Assembly: GCF_016820655.1 (NCBI RefSeq)
Contig: NZ_WSFT01000009.1
Coordinates: 1-55,719 of the forward strand
Origin: Anaeromonas frigoriresistens
GTDB taxonomy: Bacteria > Bacillota > Clostridia > Tissierellales > SIT17
Reading direction: 5' to 3'
DNA: 55,719 nucleotides
Position numbers and translations under genes: made by a program. Position 1 is the stretch's first letter. Each line of letters begins with the position of its first letter. Shown here piece by piece: positions 46,549 through 55,719 of the stretch. The notes beneath the pieces are model-generated. The model saw only the letters and a program-made list of their open reading frames with translations, ran no database searches and had not been told where the DNA came from.

Positions 46549-46812
46549 TTACTTGATATATTTATCTAATACATTAATAATTTCATCTATTTTTTCGTCC
46601 CCTTGGCCTTCTAAAATAGCTTCTTTTACACAACTTTTTATATGACCGTCTAATATATTTAAATTAGATCTTTTTAATAGTCCTTGGACAGCAAGAATCT
46701 GTTTAGAAATATCTACACAGTATCTGTCATCTTCTAGCATTCTTATAATACCTTCTATTTGACCTTTGGAGGTTTTTAGTAGATTTAATGCTTTTTTTCT
46801 TTCATCATTCAT
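46549..46812 (-). CDS. csoR: CsoR family copper-sensing repressor
   Basis: The 87-residue all-helical protein has the Cu(I) ligands of CsoR: Cys in 'DDRYCVDI' and the His-x3-Cys pair in 'DGHIKSCVKEA'. The His distinguishes it from persulfide-sensing CstR. When Cu(I) binds, the tetramer releases the operator. The ATG at 46810-46812 follows GAGGTGA; an in-frame GTG three codons earlier lies inside that site. It is the last gene of the copA-copZ-csoR group. CsoR-type inverted repeats occur upstream of copA, the HesB-like gene and ccdA. Confidence 0.93.
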   Translation of the reverse strand: MNDERKKALNLLKTSKGQIEGIIRMLEDDRYCVDISKQILAVQGLLKRSNLNILDGHIKSCVKEAILEGQGDEKIDEIINVLDKYIK

Positions 46813-46859
46813 CTTTCTCACCTCAATATTAAATAATAAATGAGTAACAGAAATAGAAG

Positions 46860-46921
46860 TGTCACTCTGAGCATGTCGAAGAGTCTTAAATAAAGATCCT
46901 TCGACTACGCTCAGGATGACA
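46860..46921. repeat. Dispersed imperfect palindrome (REP-like), copy 2
   Basis: A 62-bp inverted repeat starts TGTCACTCTGAGC and ends CGCTCAGGATGACA. It shares the right half AAGATCCTTCG...CGCTCAGGATGACA with the copy at 8828-8884 in the same orientation. It lies between copZ and csoR, inside an operon. Confidence 0.8.
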
Positions 46922-46982
46922 AAACCATAAATTATAATAGGATTATAGTTATAAAATTTAATTTAGGCTGCCCTATTATATA

Positions 46983-47195
46983 TTATACAGTCTTGATATC
47001 TACTACTTCATATCCTGCTTCTTCTACAGCTTTTGTTAAATTCTCATCCTTAAGCTCATATCCTTCTACTTCTGCTGTTTTGCTTGCTAAGTCTGCTCTT
47101 ACTTTAGTTACTTCTTCTAAGTTCATTAAAGATTTTTCCACTGCATTTGTGCAATGACCACAACTCATACCTTCTATTGTTAATGTTTTTTGCAT
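46983..47195 (-). CDS. copZ: Copper chaperone CopZ
   Basis: The 70-residue HMA-domain protein has the metal motif 'GMSCGHC' near residues 9-15, with both cysteines intact (contrast with CopA below). It passes Cu(I) to CopA. It lies 14 nt after copA, with AAGGAGAGG as ribosome binding site, and precedes csoR. Confidence 0.95.
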   Translation of the reverse strand: MQKTLTIEGMSCGHCTNAVEKSLMNLEEVTKVRADLASKTAEVEGYELKDENLTKAVEEAGYEVVDIKTV

Positions 47196-47209
47196 ATTTA
47201 CCTCTCCTT

Positions 47210-49585
47210 TTATTTTACTTTAAATCTTTTTAATCTCAGGGAATTACTTACTACAGATACTGAACTAAATGCCATAGCTGCTCCTGCTATCATTGGGTTT
47301 AATAATCCTAATGCTGCTAGAGGAATTCCTGCAGTATTATATCCAAAAGCCCAGAATAGATTTTGCTTTATAGTTCTCATTGTTTTTCTACTTAATTTAA
47401 CAGCTATAACTATATCCTTTAGATCACCCTTCATCAAGGTGATATCTGCTGCTTCCATAGCTACATCTGTTCCTGTACCTATTGCAAATCCTATATCTGC
47501 TTGAGCTAATGCTGGAGCATCATTTATACCATCTCCTACCATAGCAACATGCTTTTCCTCCCCTTGAATTCTTTTAACATTCTCTGCTTTATGTTCAGGA
47601 AGTACTTCTGCTATTACATTATCTATTCCAACTTCTCTTGCAATAGCCTTAGCTGTTCTTTCATTATCCCCTGTTATCATATATATCTCAATACCCATTT
47701 CTTTTAAGGCATCGATTGCTTCTTTTGAGCTTTCTTTTATAGTATCTGCTACTGCTATTATACCCTTTAATTCCTTATCTATAGAAAGAATCATTGCTGT
47801 TTTTCCTTCATCTTCTAATCTTTCTATTTCTGATAAAGCCTCTGATACATCTATCTTTTCTCTATTCATTAGTCTTCTATTTCCTAAAAATATTTCTTTT
47901 CCTTCTAGAGTAGAATATATACCATGCCCGGGGATTGCCTCAAAGTCTTTAACATCTGATAAATTAATGCCATCATCTTTAGCTTTATTTACAATGGCTT
48001 CTGCTAATGGATGTTCAGAGCTTTTTTCTGCTGAAGCTGATATTCTTAGCACTTCTTCTTTTGCCAAATTATAATTTATTATATCTGTTACTTCTGGCTT
48101 ACCCTTAGTGATTGTTCCTGTTTTATCAAATATTATTGTATCTATTTTATGAGCCTTTTCTAAATGCTCTCCGCCCTTTATAAGAATACCATTCTCTGCT
48201 CCTTTACCTGTTCCAACCATTATAGCTGTAGGAGTGGCTAATCCCAGTGCACAAGGACATGCTATAACAAGAACTGCTACTGCACTTATAAGGGAGGGTG
48301 TTACATCTCCTGTAACTACATACCATACAATAAATGTAACAGCTGCTATCAGAACTACAATAGGAACAAATATACCTGATACCTTATCTGCTAATCTTTG
48401 AACTGGAGCTTTTGACCCCTGAGCTTCTTCTACAAGCTTTATAATTTGGGATAATGCTGTATCCTTCCCTACCTTAGTAGCTTCAAATTTAAATGTACCA
48501 TGTTTGTTTATAGTTGATCCAATTACTTCATCCCCTGAAGTTTTCTCTACTGGAATACTTTCTCCCGTTAACATGGATTCATCAACAGTAGATTTTCCAT
48601 CTATTATCTTTCCGTCAACTGGAATTTTCTCTCCAGGACGAACTATTATAGTATTCCCTACTTCCACATCTTCTACTGGTATATCTTTTTCTTCTCCATC
48701 TTTTATAACTCTTGCTGTTTTAGCTTGAAGTCCCATAAGTTTTTTCATAGCTTCAGAGGTTTTTCCCTTAGCTACTGCTTCCATTAATTTACCTAATAAT
48801 ATTAATGTTATTATCATTGCAGAAGCTTCAAAGTAATACTGGTTTACTCCTACTATTACATTATATAAACTATAAAAATATGCTGCTGAAGTACCCATAG
48901 CTATTAATACATCCATATTTGCTCCTCCACCTCTTAATGCGTGGTAAGATCCTTTATAGAATCTATAGCCTACAATAAATTGTACTGGTGTAGCTAATAT
49001 AAACTGGAACCAACCATTACTTAAGATTGTATGAATTCCTGCCATATGGAAAAACATTGCTGAGAATAAAGGTAAAGTAAGTATTGAAGAAACTATAAAT
49101 AAATTCTTTAAATGTTTTATTTCTTTCTCCCTTGCTTCCTTCTCTTTATCTCCTTTGCTCTCTTCCTCTCGATAGGCTTTGTAACCTGCCTTTTCTACAG
49201 CTCCAATCATATCTCTAACTCCCACTTCAGAGGATAGATATTCTATTGTAGCTTTATTTGTAGCAACATTTACATTTACTTCTGATACTCCTTCAAGAGC
49301 CTTTAACGATTTTTCAACCCTTGCAGCACAGGCTGAACAAGTCATACCTTCAATACTCAATCTCATCTTATCCATTGAAGCATCATATCCTGCCTTCTTA
49401 ACTGCATTCATTAAATTTTCTATATTAACCTCATTTGGGTTATATTCAACTGTTGCCTTTTCAGCAATCAGGTTAACCGCTGCTGATTTCACTCCATTAA
49501 GCTTTGATAGAGAACTCTCTACCTTATTAGCACAGGCTGCTCAAGTCATGCCCGATATTTTAAAGCTTACTTTTTCTATAGCCAT
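47210..49585 (-). CDS. copA: Copper-exporting P-type ATPase with selenocysteine in HMA1
   Basis: The 791-residue Cu(I) exporter has two N-terminal HMA domains (about residues 1-68 and 72-142). The first metal motif reads GMT-U-AAC because the Cys codon is UGA (49541-49543, residue 15); the second is GMTCSAC. The catalytic core is complete: CPC ('ACPCALG'), phosphorylation site 'FDKTGT', 'HPLAEA' and hinge 'GDGINDAP'. The ATG at 49583-49585 follows AAAAGGAGATG. Reading only from the GTG after the UGA would lose the start, ribosome binding site and half of HMA1. A SECIS-like hairpin follows the UGA. A nonsense mutation is the alternative. Confidence 0.88.
49506..49523 (-). promoter_or_regulatory. 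SECIS-like hairpin downstream of the copA UGA
   Basis: On the minus strand the hairpin GGUAGAG-AGUU-CUCUAUC (7 bp, one G-U pair) has its loop about 25-28 nt after the UGA. The G at loop position two fits the bacterial SECIS model (a G near the start of the apical loop, loop 16-37 nt from the UGA). Confidence 0.55.
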
Positions 49586-52305: not shown

Positions 52306-52875
52306 TTAATAAAATATTGATATGCCATAATAACCAATCATAGAGATAAACAGAATTACTAATCCACTTTTCTTAAATTTTTCAACCGTTAGAGAATGAA
52401 GAATCAAAGCTAATATAAAAAGTATCGAAAAAGATACTGTTTGAACTTGAGATACACTTGATAATATGCCTTCAAATTCAAAAGCCCAGACTCCTACTGC
52501 CATAGAAAAGTAAAATGGAATTAATAGAGGATTTAGTATTTGAAAAAATGGTAGTTTCTTAAATTTAGTCCCTATATAAAGAACTAATAAAGCTATCATG
52601 ACTCCACCTATCAAGTTCAAATTATAGTGATTTATCCTTATTGCATCAAATAAATTACCTTTATATAAACTAAAATTAAATAGGACATACACTAATCTAG
52701 ATCCTATAAAGCCAGCTATCAGCTCTATAAAGTAGTAATCTTCAAGTTCTTTTTTATATTTATTATCTTTTGCTAAGAGTTTTAACATTATATATCCTAC
52801 AATAGTTAAGATTACACCAAAAGCCATATACCATGTAATACTTATCGGTCCGTATTTAAAAAATATGGGTCTCAT
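52306..52875 (-). CDS. Lgt-like membrane protein, probably not a canonical diacylglyceryl transferase
   Basis: The 189-residue protein is shorter than Lgt (about 250-280). It keeps the N-terminal fold ('YGPISITWYMAFGVILTI', 'GSRLVYVLFN', a later 'NLIGGVM'), but where Lgt has its G-R-I-G-N-F-I-N signature this has 'MAVGVWAFEFEG', without the conserved Arg. About six spans are predicted. It follows tlpA, with the start overlapping that stop (TAATG), so it probably serves the ccdA-tlpA thiol-redox operon. The lipid transfer role is doubtful. Confidence 0.65.
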   Translation of the reverse strand: MRPIFFKYGPISITWYMAFGVILTIVGYIMLKLLAKDNKYKKELEDYYFIELIAGFIGSRLVYVLFNFSLYKGNLFDAIRINHYNLNLIGGVMIALLVLYIGTKFKKLPFFQILNPLLIPFYFSMAVGVWAFEFEGILSSVSQVQTVSFSILFILALILHSLTVEKFKKSGLVILFISMIGYYGISIFY

Positions 52876-53525
52876 TAAATTTCCCCATTCCTAATCTGTT
52901 CTAATATTTGAGTCATTTGAGGATAAGTCATCATTCCCGGTACAGCTCCGATTAAAGTTCCATCCTTGTCAATATAATAAGATGTAGGATAGGCACTTAC
53001 ATAGTATCTTTGCTGAGCCACTTTGCTATCTTCATCTAATAATACAGGAAATGTATATCCGCCTTCATCTATATAATCTCTAGCTGTTTTTTCATCTTCA
53101 CCAACATTTACTGCTAATACTACGAAATCTTTATCCTTATTTTCTTCATATAATCTTTGTAAATCTGGCATTTCTTGATCACAATAGGTACACCAAGTAG
53201 CCCAGAAATTCATCATTACTATTTTGCCTTCGTAATCACTAAGAGATACTTCTTCTCCAGCTAATGTAGTAAGGGTAAAATCTGGTGCAGGTTTACCTCT
53301 TTCTAATGTTACCTGTTCTTCCTCTTCTTGAGGCTCTTCTGCTGGGTCTTCTTCTACCTTTTCCTCTGGAAGTGTTTCTTTATCATTATTTTCATCTATA
53401 ACTGCATCTTCTTTAGGTGTATCATTCCCATCATTTGTATCATTCTTATCCTGAACAGTATAATAGATACCTACTACTAGTATTATAGCTAATATAGCTA
53501 TAGCAATTATACTTTTCTTATTCAT
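52875..53525 (-). CDS. TlpA/ResA-like thiol-disulfide oxidoreductase
   Basis: The 216-residue protein has an N-terminal membrane anchor, an acidic linker (about 25-75), and a thioredoxin fold with active site 'ATWCTYCDQEMPDLQ' (C-x-x-C) and cis-Pro in 'SAYPTSYYIDKDG'. It reduces or oxidises external thiols. CcdA, encoded 32 nt upstream, likely supplies electrons across the membrane. Confidence 0.92.
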   Translation of the reverse strand: MNKKSIIAIAILAIILVVGIYYTVQDKNDTNDGNDTPKEDAVIDENNDKETLPEEKVEEDPAEEPQEEEEQVTLERGKPAPDFTLTTLAGEEVSLSDYEGKIVMMNFWATWCTYCDQEMPDLQRLYEENKDKDFVVLAVNVGEDEKTARDYIDEGGYTFPVLLDEDSKVAQQRYYVSAYPTSYYIDKDGTLIGAVPGMMTYPQMTQILEQIRNGEI

Positions 53526-53557: not shown

Positions 53558-54250
53558 TTAAGTCAACCAGTTCCCGATTATTACAATTTTATCTAGAAAT
53601 ACTAAAATACCAAATATCACTAAAATTAATCCTGCTATTTTATATATATAACCTGCCCATTTTTGCACTCTATTAAGAAATTTACTGAAATAACTAATGA
53701 ATAGAGCTGTTAAAATGAAAGGTATCGCCATTCCTAGAGAATATACTAATAATAGATATACAGATTGAGTTACATCACTAGATAATCCCGCCTTCACTAA
53801 TATTGAGGCTAATATTGGTCCATAACAAGGGGTCCAACCTGCAGCAAATGCCATTCCCATTACTGTAGATCCTAAAAAGCTAGTAACTTTTTTAGGAGAT
53901 TTGGCTCTTTTTTCTGTATTCATAAATCCTATATCTATAATACCCATTAAATTAAGTCCAAAGAACATGATAAGTACACCACTTATCTTAGTAAATATTG
54001 CTTTATTTTGTATAAAGATTCTGCCTATGTAAGTGGCAGATACACCCATTAGCATGAATATAATGGTAAAGCCTAGCACAAAACCCAGTGTTCTAGATAG
54101 GGCTAACCATCTTTTTTGGGCTAATTCCTCCTCCATACTTGTTCCAGTCATATACATTATATAAGCTGGTATAAGAGGTAATATACATGGAGAAAAAAAC
54201 GAAAGAACTCCGGCTCCAAATGCCATTGGAAATGTTACATCATTAAACAT
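53558..54250 (-). CDS. ccdA: CcdA-type cytochrome c biogenesis / thiol-reductant transporter
   Basis: The 230-residue protein has six spans. The redox Cys pair is present: 'SPCILPLIPAY' in the first helix and 'GWTPCYGPIL' in the fourth. It moves electrons from cytoplasmic thioredoxin to the outside for the neighbouring TlpA protein. It is the first gene of the ccdA-tlpA-lgt-like operon. The inverted repeat CATACC-AG-GGTATG at 54277-54290 lies in its promoter. Confidence 0.93.
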   Translation of the reverse strand: MFNDVTFPMAFGAGVLSFFSPCILPLIPAYIMYMTGTSMEEELAQKRWLALSRTLGFVLGFTIIFMLMGVSATYIGRIFIQNKAIFTKISGVLIMFFGLNLMGIIDIGFMNTEKRAKSPKKVTSFLGSTVMGMAFAAGWTPCYGPILASILVKAGLSSDVTQSVYLLLVYSLGMAIPFILTALFISYFSKFLNRVQKWAGYIYKIAGLILVIFGILVFLDKIVIIGNWLT

Positions 54251-54295: not shown

Positions 54296-55264
54296 TCAAT
54301 CATTATCCCTTAATGCTTTTTCAACAAAAGTACTAACCTTTTCCGTACAAATTTTGCAATCATCTTTATCTATACAACAAGGGTTTACATGGACTAATAC
54401 ACTCTTAATGTTTTCAATTCGTTCATAAACTATAGCCTCTACATCTTCAGCTATATCATGTCCTTGACTAACAGTTATGTCAGGATCTACTGCTATCTCT
54501 ATATCTACATAAGCCATAGATCCGTGCTTTCTTGCTTTGATATCATTTACTGTTTTAACTCCTGTGTGAGTCATTACTGCATTTACTATTTTAATTAATT
54601 TTTCTTCCTCTAAAGATTCATCCATTAACTCATTAGTTCCCTTTACAAATATCTCTACTCCAACCTTTACTACTATAATGGACACTAGAACTCCTGCTAC
54701 AGGATCTAAGAAGCTGTATCCTAGTCTAGCACCTAATATACCAACTAATGCAGCTATTGAGGATAATGCATCGGAGCGATGATGCCATGCATCGGCTATC
54801 AAAACATCACTATTTATTTTCTTCCCAGCTCTTAGTGAGATTCTATATTGTATCTCCTTTACTACTATTGATATTATTGCTGCCCATATAGCAGCTATTC
54901 CTGGTACTTCTGCCCCACCACTAAATATTAGCTTAATGGAGTTATATCCTATGTTTAATCCTACCGCAATTAATAGTACAGATAATAGAAATGTGGCAAT
55001 AGTTTCTGCTTTTTCATGGCCATATTGATGCTCTAAATCTTCTGGTTTTTTGGCAATAAAAAGACCTACTATTATACCTAATGAACTACCCACATCAGAA
55101 ATACTATGTATACCATCGGCAAGCATCGCATTAGAGTTTGATATTATACCTATAACTACCTTTAATACAGATAAAATTATATTTAATATTATAGTTATCC
55201 ATATTACTCTTTGACCTAATTTATATCTATCTTCTTTATTTATTATTTCTCCCAATTTATTCAC
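54296..55264 (-). CDS. Cation diffusion facilitator (CDF) metal transporter
   Basis: The 322-residue protein has six spans. The transport-site motifs are 'MLADGIHSISDVGSS' (D-x-x-H-x-x-x-D) and 'DAWHHRSDALSS' (H-x-x-x-D). The cytoplasmic domain shows the metal-binding fold ('HGSMAYVDIEIAVDPDITV'), and the end is Cys-rich ('CCIDKDDCKICTEKV'), which is not usual. It exports Zn2+, Fe2+ or similar. The start may be TTG three codons after the GTG used here. It stands alone beside a redox operon. Confidence 0.9.
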   Translation of the reverse strand: MNKLGEIINKEDRYKLGQRVIWITIILNIILSVLKVVIGIISNSNAMLADGIHSISDVGSSLGIIVGLFIAKKPEDLEHQYGHEKAETIATFLLSVLLIAVGLNIGYNSIKLIFSGGAEVPGIAAIWAAIISIVVKEIQYRISLRAGKKINSDVLIADAWHHRSDALSSIAALVGILGARLGYSFLDPVAGVLVSIIVVKVGVEIFVKGTNELMDESLEEEKLIKIVNAVMTHTGVKTVNDIKARKHGSMAYVDIEIAVDPDITVSQGHDIAEDVEAIVYERIENIKSVLVHVNPCCIDKDDCKICTEKVSTFVEKALRDND

Positions 55265-55354: not shown

Positions 55355-55383
55355 TTGGGTAAAAATAAAATATAGTGTATAAT
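55355..55383 (+). promoter_or_regulatory. Promoter of the DUF1858 gene
   Basis: TTGGGT is followed by 17 nt and TATAAT with an upstream TG (extended -10). A TTACCC/GGGTAA inverted repeat (55329-55334 and 55357-55362) overlaps the -35, but the spacing is wide and it may be chance. Confidence 0.6.
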
Positions 55384-55428
55384 AAATATACTAAGTAATA
55401 AGAATTTTTTATTAAGGAGGAATCTCAA

Positions 55429-55614
55429 TTGGCTATAACTAAAGATATGCTTATTGGTGAAATACTAAGAGAAAGATCAGATGCACCACAAATCTTAATG
55501 AGATTTGGTATGGGTTGCGTTGGCTGACCTGCTTCCCAAATGGAATCCTTAGAGCAGGCTGCTCAAGTTCATGGTTTAGATGTTGACGAATTACTTAAAG
55601 CATTAAATGAGTAA
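55429..55614 (+). CDS. DUF1858 (hybrid-cluster-associated redox domain) selenoprotein
   Basis: The 61-residue protein begins at TTG with AAGGAGG 8 nt upstream. An in-frame UGA (55525-55527, residue 33) gives GMGCVG-U-PASQ, where family members read GMGC-x-x-C. The UGA thus replaces the second Cys of a redox pair and creates a Cys-Sec pair. The remainder (SLEQAAQVHGLDVDELLKALNE) fits the family to the end. The role is probably a small thiol/selenol redox protein near metal or Fe-S proteins. A SECIS-like hairpin follows the UGA. Confidence 0.88.
55552..55564 (+). promoter_or_regulatory. SECIS-like hairpin downstream of the DUF1858 UGA
   Basis: GAGCA-GGC-UGCUC (5-bp stem, 3-nt loop starting with G) has its loop 30-32 nt after the UGA. 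It fits a bacterial SECIS, although the stem is short. A longer CCUGCU/AGCAGG pairing (starting right after the UGA) is an alternative fold. Confidence 0.5.
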
Positions 55615-55620
55615 ATAACT

Positions 55621-55648
55621 AAGACCCAGTGTATATACACTGGGTCTT
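55621..55648. terminator. Bidirectional terminator
   Basis: A 28-bp perfect palindrome (arms AAGACCCAGTGTAT and ATACACTGGGTCTT) lies between the convergent DUF1858 and glutaredoxin-like genes. Confidence 0.85.
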
Positions 55649-55657
55649 TCTATATTA

Positions 55658-55719
55658 TTATAGTAATTCTTCTAATCTATTTTTATCGAATCCTACCATT
55701 TCTTCTCCATCAACTATGA
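55658..55719 (-). CDS. Glutaredoxin/NrdH-like protein, C-terminal end only
   Basis: The visible minus-strand frame ends 'IVDGEEMVGFDKNRLEELL' at TAA 55658-55660 and continues past the window edge. The V-D-G-E-x-x-V-G-F-D pattern is the end of small glutaredoxin-like (YruB/NrdH) proteins. The active-site part is outside the window, so its Cys or Sec state cannot be seen. Confidence 0.6.
   Translation of the reverse strand, partial: IVDGEEMVGFDKNRLEELL

Follow-up and report, generated by a model that had tools for sequence, protein, structure and literature searches.

The small gene at positions 55429 to 55614 of the 55,719-nucleotide stretch of Anaeromonas frigoriresistens DNA analysed here (contig NZ_WSFT01000009.1; "the window" in what follows) very probably encodes a 61-residue DUF1858 selenoprotein, in which an in-frame UGA at residue 33 would be read as selenocysteine (Sec). 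Insertion of Sec is deduced here from the sequence, and should be regarded as very likely rather than proven. A gene of this kind may readily be overlooked by automatic annotation. DUF1858 selenoproteins having a CxxU motif are already known, and the gene in the window is a further one of them: WP_012065717.1, a DUF1858 domain-containing selenoprotein with CxxU (PF08984), is catalogued in PMC9312934 and PMC13188914, so that the novelty claimed in an earlier note on this DNA was overstated. The two proteins have the Pfam family and the CxxU motif in common, as judged from the catalogue listing rather than residue by residue, and the catalogue passages concerned give no function, hairpin or neighbourhood for WP_012065717.1. 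Within the literature covered on DUF1858, TIGR03980 and glutaredoxin selenoproteins (many journals fall outside that coverage), no study was found of the present gene, of its glutaredoxin neighbour or of its function.

The gene and its product

The features of the gene and its immediate surroundings are as follows.

55355–55383, + strand: candidate promoter (TTGGGT at 55355–55360, 17-base spacer, TATAAT at 55378–55383), picked out by eye; weak
55414–55420, + strand: AAGGAGG ribosome binding site, 8 bases 5' of the TTG start
55429–55614, + strand: gene of the DUF1858/TIGR03980 family, including the TAA stop; 61 residues if the UGA is decoded as Sec
55429–55431, + strand: TTG start codon
55516–55518, + strand: TGC codon of Cys30, first Cys of the CxxU motif
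55525–55527, + strand: in-frame UGA (TGA), residue 33, proposed Sec; followed by a predicted short helix, 34–37
55548–55567, + strand: proposed bSECIS hairpin, core only: CUU-a-GAGCA / loop GGC / UGCUC-AAG; distance from UGA to loop 29 nt
55614, + strand: last base of the TAA stop
55621–55648, both strands: two-way intrinsic terminator hairpin between facing genes, from the terminator scan

Most of what the earlier note had said of the architecture of this gene is borne out: the 61-codon frame with its start, ribosome binding site and stop can all be read directly in the sequence, as can the UGA at the second Cys position of GMGCxxC (the motif here reading C30-V-G-U33), while the terminator is listed by the scan on both strands (2 found against 0.2 expected). 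The promoter that it had also claimed fared less well, since although a TATAAT and a TTGGGT with a 17-base spacer can be seen by eye, the promoter scan lists none on the + strand 5' of the gene (three promoters were found in the region as against 3.7 expected); the promoter is the weakest element of the gene.

The claim that the protein matches its family on both sides of the UGA holds good. When C is written for U, the TIGR03980 profile matches residues 3–60, spanning the UGA, with a score of 101 bits (cut-off 44.95), and PF08984 matches with 79.5 bits (cut-off 32.2); a PF08984 search of the raw genome likewise hit the 55429–55614 locus, with one TGA inside it. In all, the genome contains five PF08984 matches at E ≤ 0.001, four of them above the cut-off, and only in the present gene is there a stop inside the match. 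Comparison with the same-genus orthologue in genome G002 gives dN 0.055 and dS 1.338 before the UGA, and dN 0.128 and dS 2.06 after it, where it must be remembered that dS is close to saturation and the stretches are short. Because the parts before and after the UGA align to a single family domain, with dN low relative to dS in each, the gene is taken to be more than a product of chance.

Two of the other family matches in the source genome may be mentioned in passing. The fifth and weakest is the first domain of a RIC-like protein on contig C38, whose gene forms a series with a flavodiiron-like and a hemerythrin-like gene (L005 1–2190, + strand, by reading). On contig C12 (L003 1453–3081, − strand) a 542-residue protein, possibly a sensor, has a C-terminal DUF1858 match of 55.7 bits that is without the Cys pair and comes after hemerythrin/PAS-like parts (by reading).

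Machinery for selenocysteine in the host

The earlier note had regarded a host devoid of selenoprotein machinery as fatal to its reading, but what was found is a complete set: profile searches identify selA (639.9 bits), selB (364.2 bits) and selD (400.7 bits), tRNA-Sec is found both by ARAGORN and by Rfam (72.5 bits, cut-off 47), and all four lie on contig C52. The host selD gene (L112; C52 41887–42810, − strand), which adjoins selA and selB, has one in-frame TGA of its own, so SelD is itself likely to be a selenoprotein. SelA scores above its cut-off in all 22 genomes chosen for the comparison, carriers of UGA and of Cys alike, and loss of the Sec machinery was rejected on this ground as the cause of Cys in the relatives.

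It is because this machinery is complete, because the UGA forms have a bSECIS-shaped hairpin, and because there are homologues with UGA at the same codon, that the Cys–Sec pair proposed in the earlier note can be called well supported. In the mechanism envisaged, SelB with Sec-tRNA would read the UGA at codon 33, aided by a hairpin with a GGC loop 29 nt to the 3' side; the resulting C30-V-G-U33 motif would sit right before a short helix, and the Cys30/Sec33 pair would presumably cycle between selenylsulfide and selenol/thiol.

The hairpin downstream of the UGA

Published criteria for a bSECIS element (PMC13188914) ask for a loop of 3–9 nt with a G early in it (in many cases G or U comes next), a distance of 16–37 nt from the UGA and a minimum free energy of −7.5 kcal/mol or below. 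The hairpin in the window agrees with these, having a loop that can be written AGGCU or GGC at 28–29 nt and an energy of −7.5 kcal/mol, a borderline value that varies with the flank included (−8.3 kcal/mol at 18 nt, −7.5 kcal/mol at 16 nt). When the gene was recoded synonymously, 76 of 4000 recodings (about 2%) equalled the window hairpin under a strict loop rule, and 24 of 400 (6%) under a loose one. For the other five UGA forms the strict rule gave 4, 21, 1, 6 and 3 of 400; the 21 belongs to the one form with a weak hairpin (−4.7), represented by L063 and L047, which are alike over the 60 bases compared. Of the 26 Cys sequences given the same treatment, one (L020) gives 11 of 400, a point against the hairpin reading. 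The recodings drew on the codon usage of the window for every sequence, a choice less suited to the Lutispora-type rows.

Of the 56 rows of the tree described below, 50 passed a motif and length filter (6 Sec, 44 Cys), and among these the −7.5 limit is reached by five of the six UGA homologues and by none of the 44 Cys homologues scored (Mann–Whitney p 5.8e-5, kinship being ignored). A control using glutaredoxins, with identical stretches counted once, gave an equivalent picture (5/7 UGA forms against 0/32 Cys forms; Mann–Whitney p 7e-7, kinship again ignored), and this separation supports the scoring method. The earlier note had also stated that its reading would fail if all neighbours had Cys and the hairpin were not conserved; as it turns out, nearly all the neighbours do have Cys, but the hairpin is common to the UGA forms.

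Against this, once the loop rule is loosened, the hairpins of several Cys homologues come out as stable or more so, down to −11.1, and if the first 45 nt of the window sequence are folded without constraint the best structure is a different, competing hairpin at −8.5. Plain folding energy was dropped as a test for SECIS elements, since the published G[G/U] loop pattern (p 5.8e-5) tells UGA forms from Cys forms better than either unconstrained 45-nt energies or the loose loop rule (p 0.002). An Rfam scan gave no match at the gathering score, and two weak matches (E 3.1 and 3.3) miss the hairpin.

These results bear directly on the possibility that the UGA is simply a one-base sequencing or assembly error, the real codon being TGC or TGT. 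The comparison covers one genome per species, the codon lies only 192 bases from the contig end, and TGC differs from TGA by a single base, all of which would allow such an error; yet the window has GAG CAG where the same-genus Cys orthologues have GAA CAA, synonymous differences within the hairpin that go in the direction of building the stem, the complete lack of hairpins at the −7.5 limit among the 44 Cys homologues points the same way, and the contig end is itself probably due to a repeat (see below). An error of this kind is therefore considered very improbable.

Somewhat less improbable, but still hardly to be expected, is that the UGA is a genuine nonsense mutation, giving a young pseudogene or a truncated product of 32 residues that is tolerated thanks to a second DUF1858 gene. 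The source genome does indeed have such a gene, single-domain, full-length and with Cys (contig C43, 86.2 bits), and Cys is found in all three same-genus orthologues. Against this, the start, ribosome binding site, frame, stop and terminator are all intact, dN remains low relative to dS after the UGA, a strict bSECIS-shaped hairpin was not found in the same-genus Cys orthologues (L014, L015 and L016), and the same substitution occurs in two other lineages that also encode SelA (G240 in one case; G268, G420, G497 and G596 in the other). Insertion of Sec thus continues to be the preferred reading.

Distribution and evolution of the Cys and UGA forms

Within the order, a protein search finds a DUF1858 homologue in 239 of 249 genomes, while the UGA pattern is found in two of the 249, the source genome and G240 (the contig in question being Tissierella record L055); this latter figure is a lower bound, the pattern requiring GMGC and also CC after the TGA. 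In a sample of the class the pattern occurs in 8 of 391 genomes, of which five are DUF1858 (the source genome, G000, together with G268, G420, G497 and G596, these four constituting one genus, g112 of family f39) and the other three failed the motif filter. A scan of contig records for the pattern returned 20 stretches that were mostly chance occurrences, six of them proving on translation to be DUF1858 (L046, L047, L049, L055, L063 and L065). Overall, four sequences from the family that contains Lutispora and one from Tissierella share the position of the UGA codon, so that it occurs in another family of the class and another of the order; the UGA forms bearing names come from Lutispora saccharofermentans, a Lutispora bin, unnamed Clostridia bins and Tissierella. 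On the Tissierella contig the UGA DUF1858 gene has as its neighbour a HesB/IscA-like gene (L088 886–1176, + strand) that itself contains an in-frame TGA (GHGUGG) and scores below the cut-offs of the models for HesB-like selenoproteins. Homologues occur also in eight plasmid records, and both of those read (Acetoanaerobium and Peptoclostridium) carry Cys.

Two of the same-genus Cys orthologues, at the same locus, are 89% identical to the protein in the window. A tree was built from 56 rows, the 59 loci minus L097 (a duplicate of L045) and two divergent paralogues, L018 and L019. It has three or more changes between Cys and Sec, pointing to separate events, and both a single clade for the six Sec rows (p-AU 0.015) and a clade of the window with G240 (p-AU 0.020) are rejected, although this tree is based on 61 columns and leaves many of its forks open. 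Most likely, to judge from these sequences, Sec replaced Cys recently in the present lineage, this being the simplest reading given that each of the three same-genus orthologues has Cys, though Sec may instead have been lost repeatedly. Such changes have precedent: Zhang et al. (2006) counted 33 replacements of Cys by Sec, spread over 17 families, and 15 of Sec by Cys, the former chiefly in families whose motif is UxxC, CxxU or TxxU (PMC1794560). Since Cys-to-Sec replacement in families of the CxxU type is thus known in general, the gene described here is one more case and introduces no new principle.

Gene neighbourhood

The neighbours of the gene within the window are the following.

52875–53525, − strand: ResA/TlpA-like thiol-disulfide protein; best match ResA, 139.7 bits (cut-off 170, not reached)
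53558–54250, − strand: CcdA/DsbD-like membrane protein; matches below curated cut-offs; same gene order in G002 and G003
54296–55264, − strand: cation diffusion facilitator gene; TIGR01297, 246.7 bits, above cut-off; absent here in G002 and G003
55658–55719, − strand: 3' end of a glutaredoxin-like gene that faces DUF1858 and is truncated where the contig stops; either the Cys or the Sec copy

Farther away, at 46549–49492 on the − strand, are genes for a CsoR-like regulator and a copper-type P-ATPase (by reading).

The facing gene resembles the Uxx-star and YruB glutaredoxin-like (seleno)proteins, a glutaredoxin family distinct from DUF1858. In G002 and G003 the locus runs: UPHC glutaredoxin, CPHC glutaredoxin, the facing DUF1858 gene, then CcdA-like, ResA-like and Lgt-like genes (the last by reading), and the order in the window is the same but for the addition of the cation exporter. 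A UPHC glutaredoxin-like gene with TGA, of the selenoprotein type, does exist in the source genome, at the start of contig C25 (L086 1–210, − strand), where it matches TIGR02196 with 79.4 bits (cut-off 88.55) and NF041212 with 62.1 bits (cut-off 66), in both cases below the cut-off, this copy being truncated by the end of its contig. The first 44 bases of C25 are identical to the last 44 of the window (55676–55719). Because the tandem CPHC and UPHC glutaredoxins share long identical runs (68 and 65 bases in G002 and G003, 32 in G001), this overlap is probably a repeat, to which the break between the contigs is probably due. A joint change from Cys to Sec in both facing genes was considered and rejected on these grounds, G002 and G003 holding two tandem copies, the near one CPHC and the far one UPHC.

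More widely in the order, 33 of 50 loci have a glutaredoxin gene opposite DUF1858, in 29 of them within 300 nt; this sample is not random, comprising the window locus, the 29 best-scoring places from the protein search, G240 and 19 loci picked over families, and it includes no Lutispora-type loci. Of the 17 loci having no facing glutaredoxin, three end within 350 nt. A glutaredoxin copy bearing a stop occurs in seven of the 50, and in each distinct one the stop is TGA. A glutaredoxin search of four Lutispora-type loci found none facing. Other associations are seen elsewhere: in L065 the UGA DUF1858 gene is directly 3' of a RIC gene (257 bits), and close to it are genes matching anaerobic nitric oxide reductase flavorubredoxin (722 bits) and the selenium transporter YedE (524.7 bits) as well as a yedF-like gene, while in Peptoclostridium the Cys DUF1858 gene is followed by hypothetical and hemerythrin genes, near an Fe-S carrier gene. 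On reading the window locus, no RIC or nitric oxide gene was found beside the DUF1858 gene.

The position of the L065 gene beside yedE and a yedF-like gene (L063 being similar by reading), together with the cation exporter adjoining the gene in the window, raises the question of whether Sec might be inserted but serve in a protein that handles metal or selenium, for instance as a selenium carrier, rather than in repair or disulfide chemistry. However, the neighbour that recurs in the order of the window is a glutaredoxin, in the 33 of 50 loci just mentioned, and the predicted fold is like that of the first domain of YtfE, so that a role of this sort seems rather unlikely, if less so than either of the readings that would deny Sec altogether.

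Predicted fold and possible function

The AlphaFold2 model has a pLDDT of 93.8 and places residue 33 immediately before the helix 34–37. It matches the DUF1858 family folds 2k5e (Z 11.1) and 2k53 (Z 9.8), representatives of the Cys-form DUF1858/TIGR03980 "hybrid cluster protein-associated redox disulfide domain", which the protein in the window resembles in its full-length match, its fold and the position of the CxxC motif, differing in having UGA/Sec in place of the second Cys. The model is also similar to the N-terminal domain of the YtfE/RIC/ScdA proteins: comparison with the first domain of YtfE (5fny) gives Z 9.7 and an rmsd of 1.1 over 55 residues at about 22% identity, and Foldseek gives E values of 0.28 to 0.6 (probability 0.99 at E 0.28), though for helical bundles a Z below about 13 may reflect merely a common arrangement. 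There are clear differences, the window protein ending after this first domain, at 61 residues, without the C-terminal di-iron hemerythrin-like domain of YtfE/RIC, and having CxxU where the RIC-type proteins of the source genome and of L065 have an adjacent Cys pair (FCCGG). Kinship with YtfE is tentatively suggested by modelled fold and gene context together.

Some published observations place DUF1858 in related settings. In a denitrification study the Bradyrhizobium DUF1858 gene bsl7085 was 29.2-fold lower in an nnrR mutant (PMC6710368), and Thermus DrpB, studied in connection with nitrate respiration, includes a DUF1858 domain (PMC6282519).

As to function, the facing glutaredoxin gene or genes may supply the reductant of the Cys–Sec pair, and its task, as a selenol/thiol carrier, might be the repair of iron-sulfur or nitrosylated centres. 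Both proposals come from neighbourhood and fold; the glutaredoxin partnership has a chance falling only slightly short of even, and participation in Fe-S or nitrosative repair, suggested because the domain resembles a free-standing version of the N-terminal domain of YtfE/RIC proteins, is a shade more tentative still. The interpretation in the earlier note is thus borne out in part, its "tiny selenol redox partner" being suggested indirectly, by the CxxU motif together with the glutaredoxin encoded opposite and the resemblance to YtfE in fold. A more ambitious version, which is doubtful though worth stating, would have DUF1858 be the RIC/YtfE N-terminal domain in free-standing form, acting in trans as a carrier in nitrosative or Fe-S repair and recharged by the facing tandem of Cys and Sec glutaredoxins, with several lineages having independently swapped the second Cys for Sec.

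Whichever of these applies, a protein of 61 residues is a very small selenoprotein, and its Cys orthologues at the same locus allow Sec and Cys to be compared in a near-identical domain, while the DUF1858 family, so far little studied, gains a testable role from its glutaredoxin neighbours and from the resemblance of its fold to YtfE. If the reading as a free-standing RIC domain were true, nature would have provided this tiny domain in matching Cys and Sec versions for one and the same repair step.
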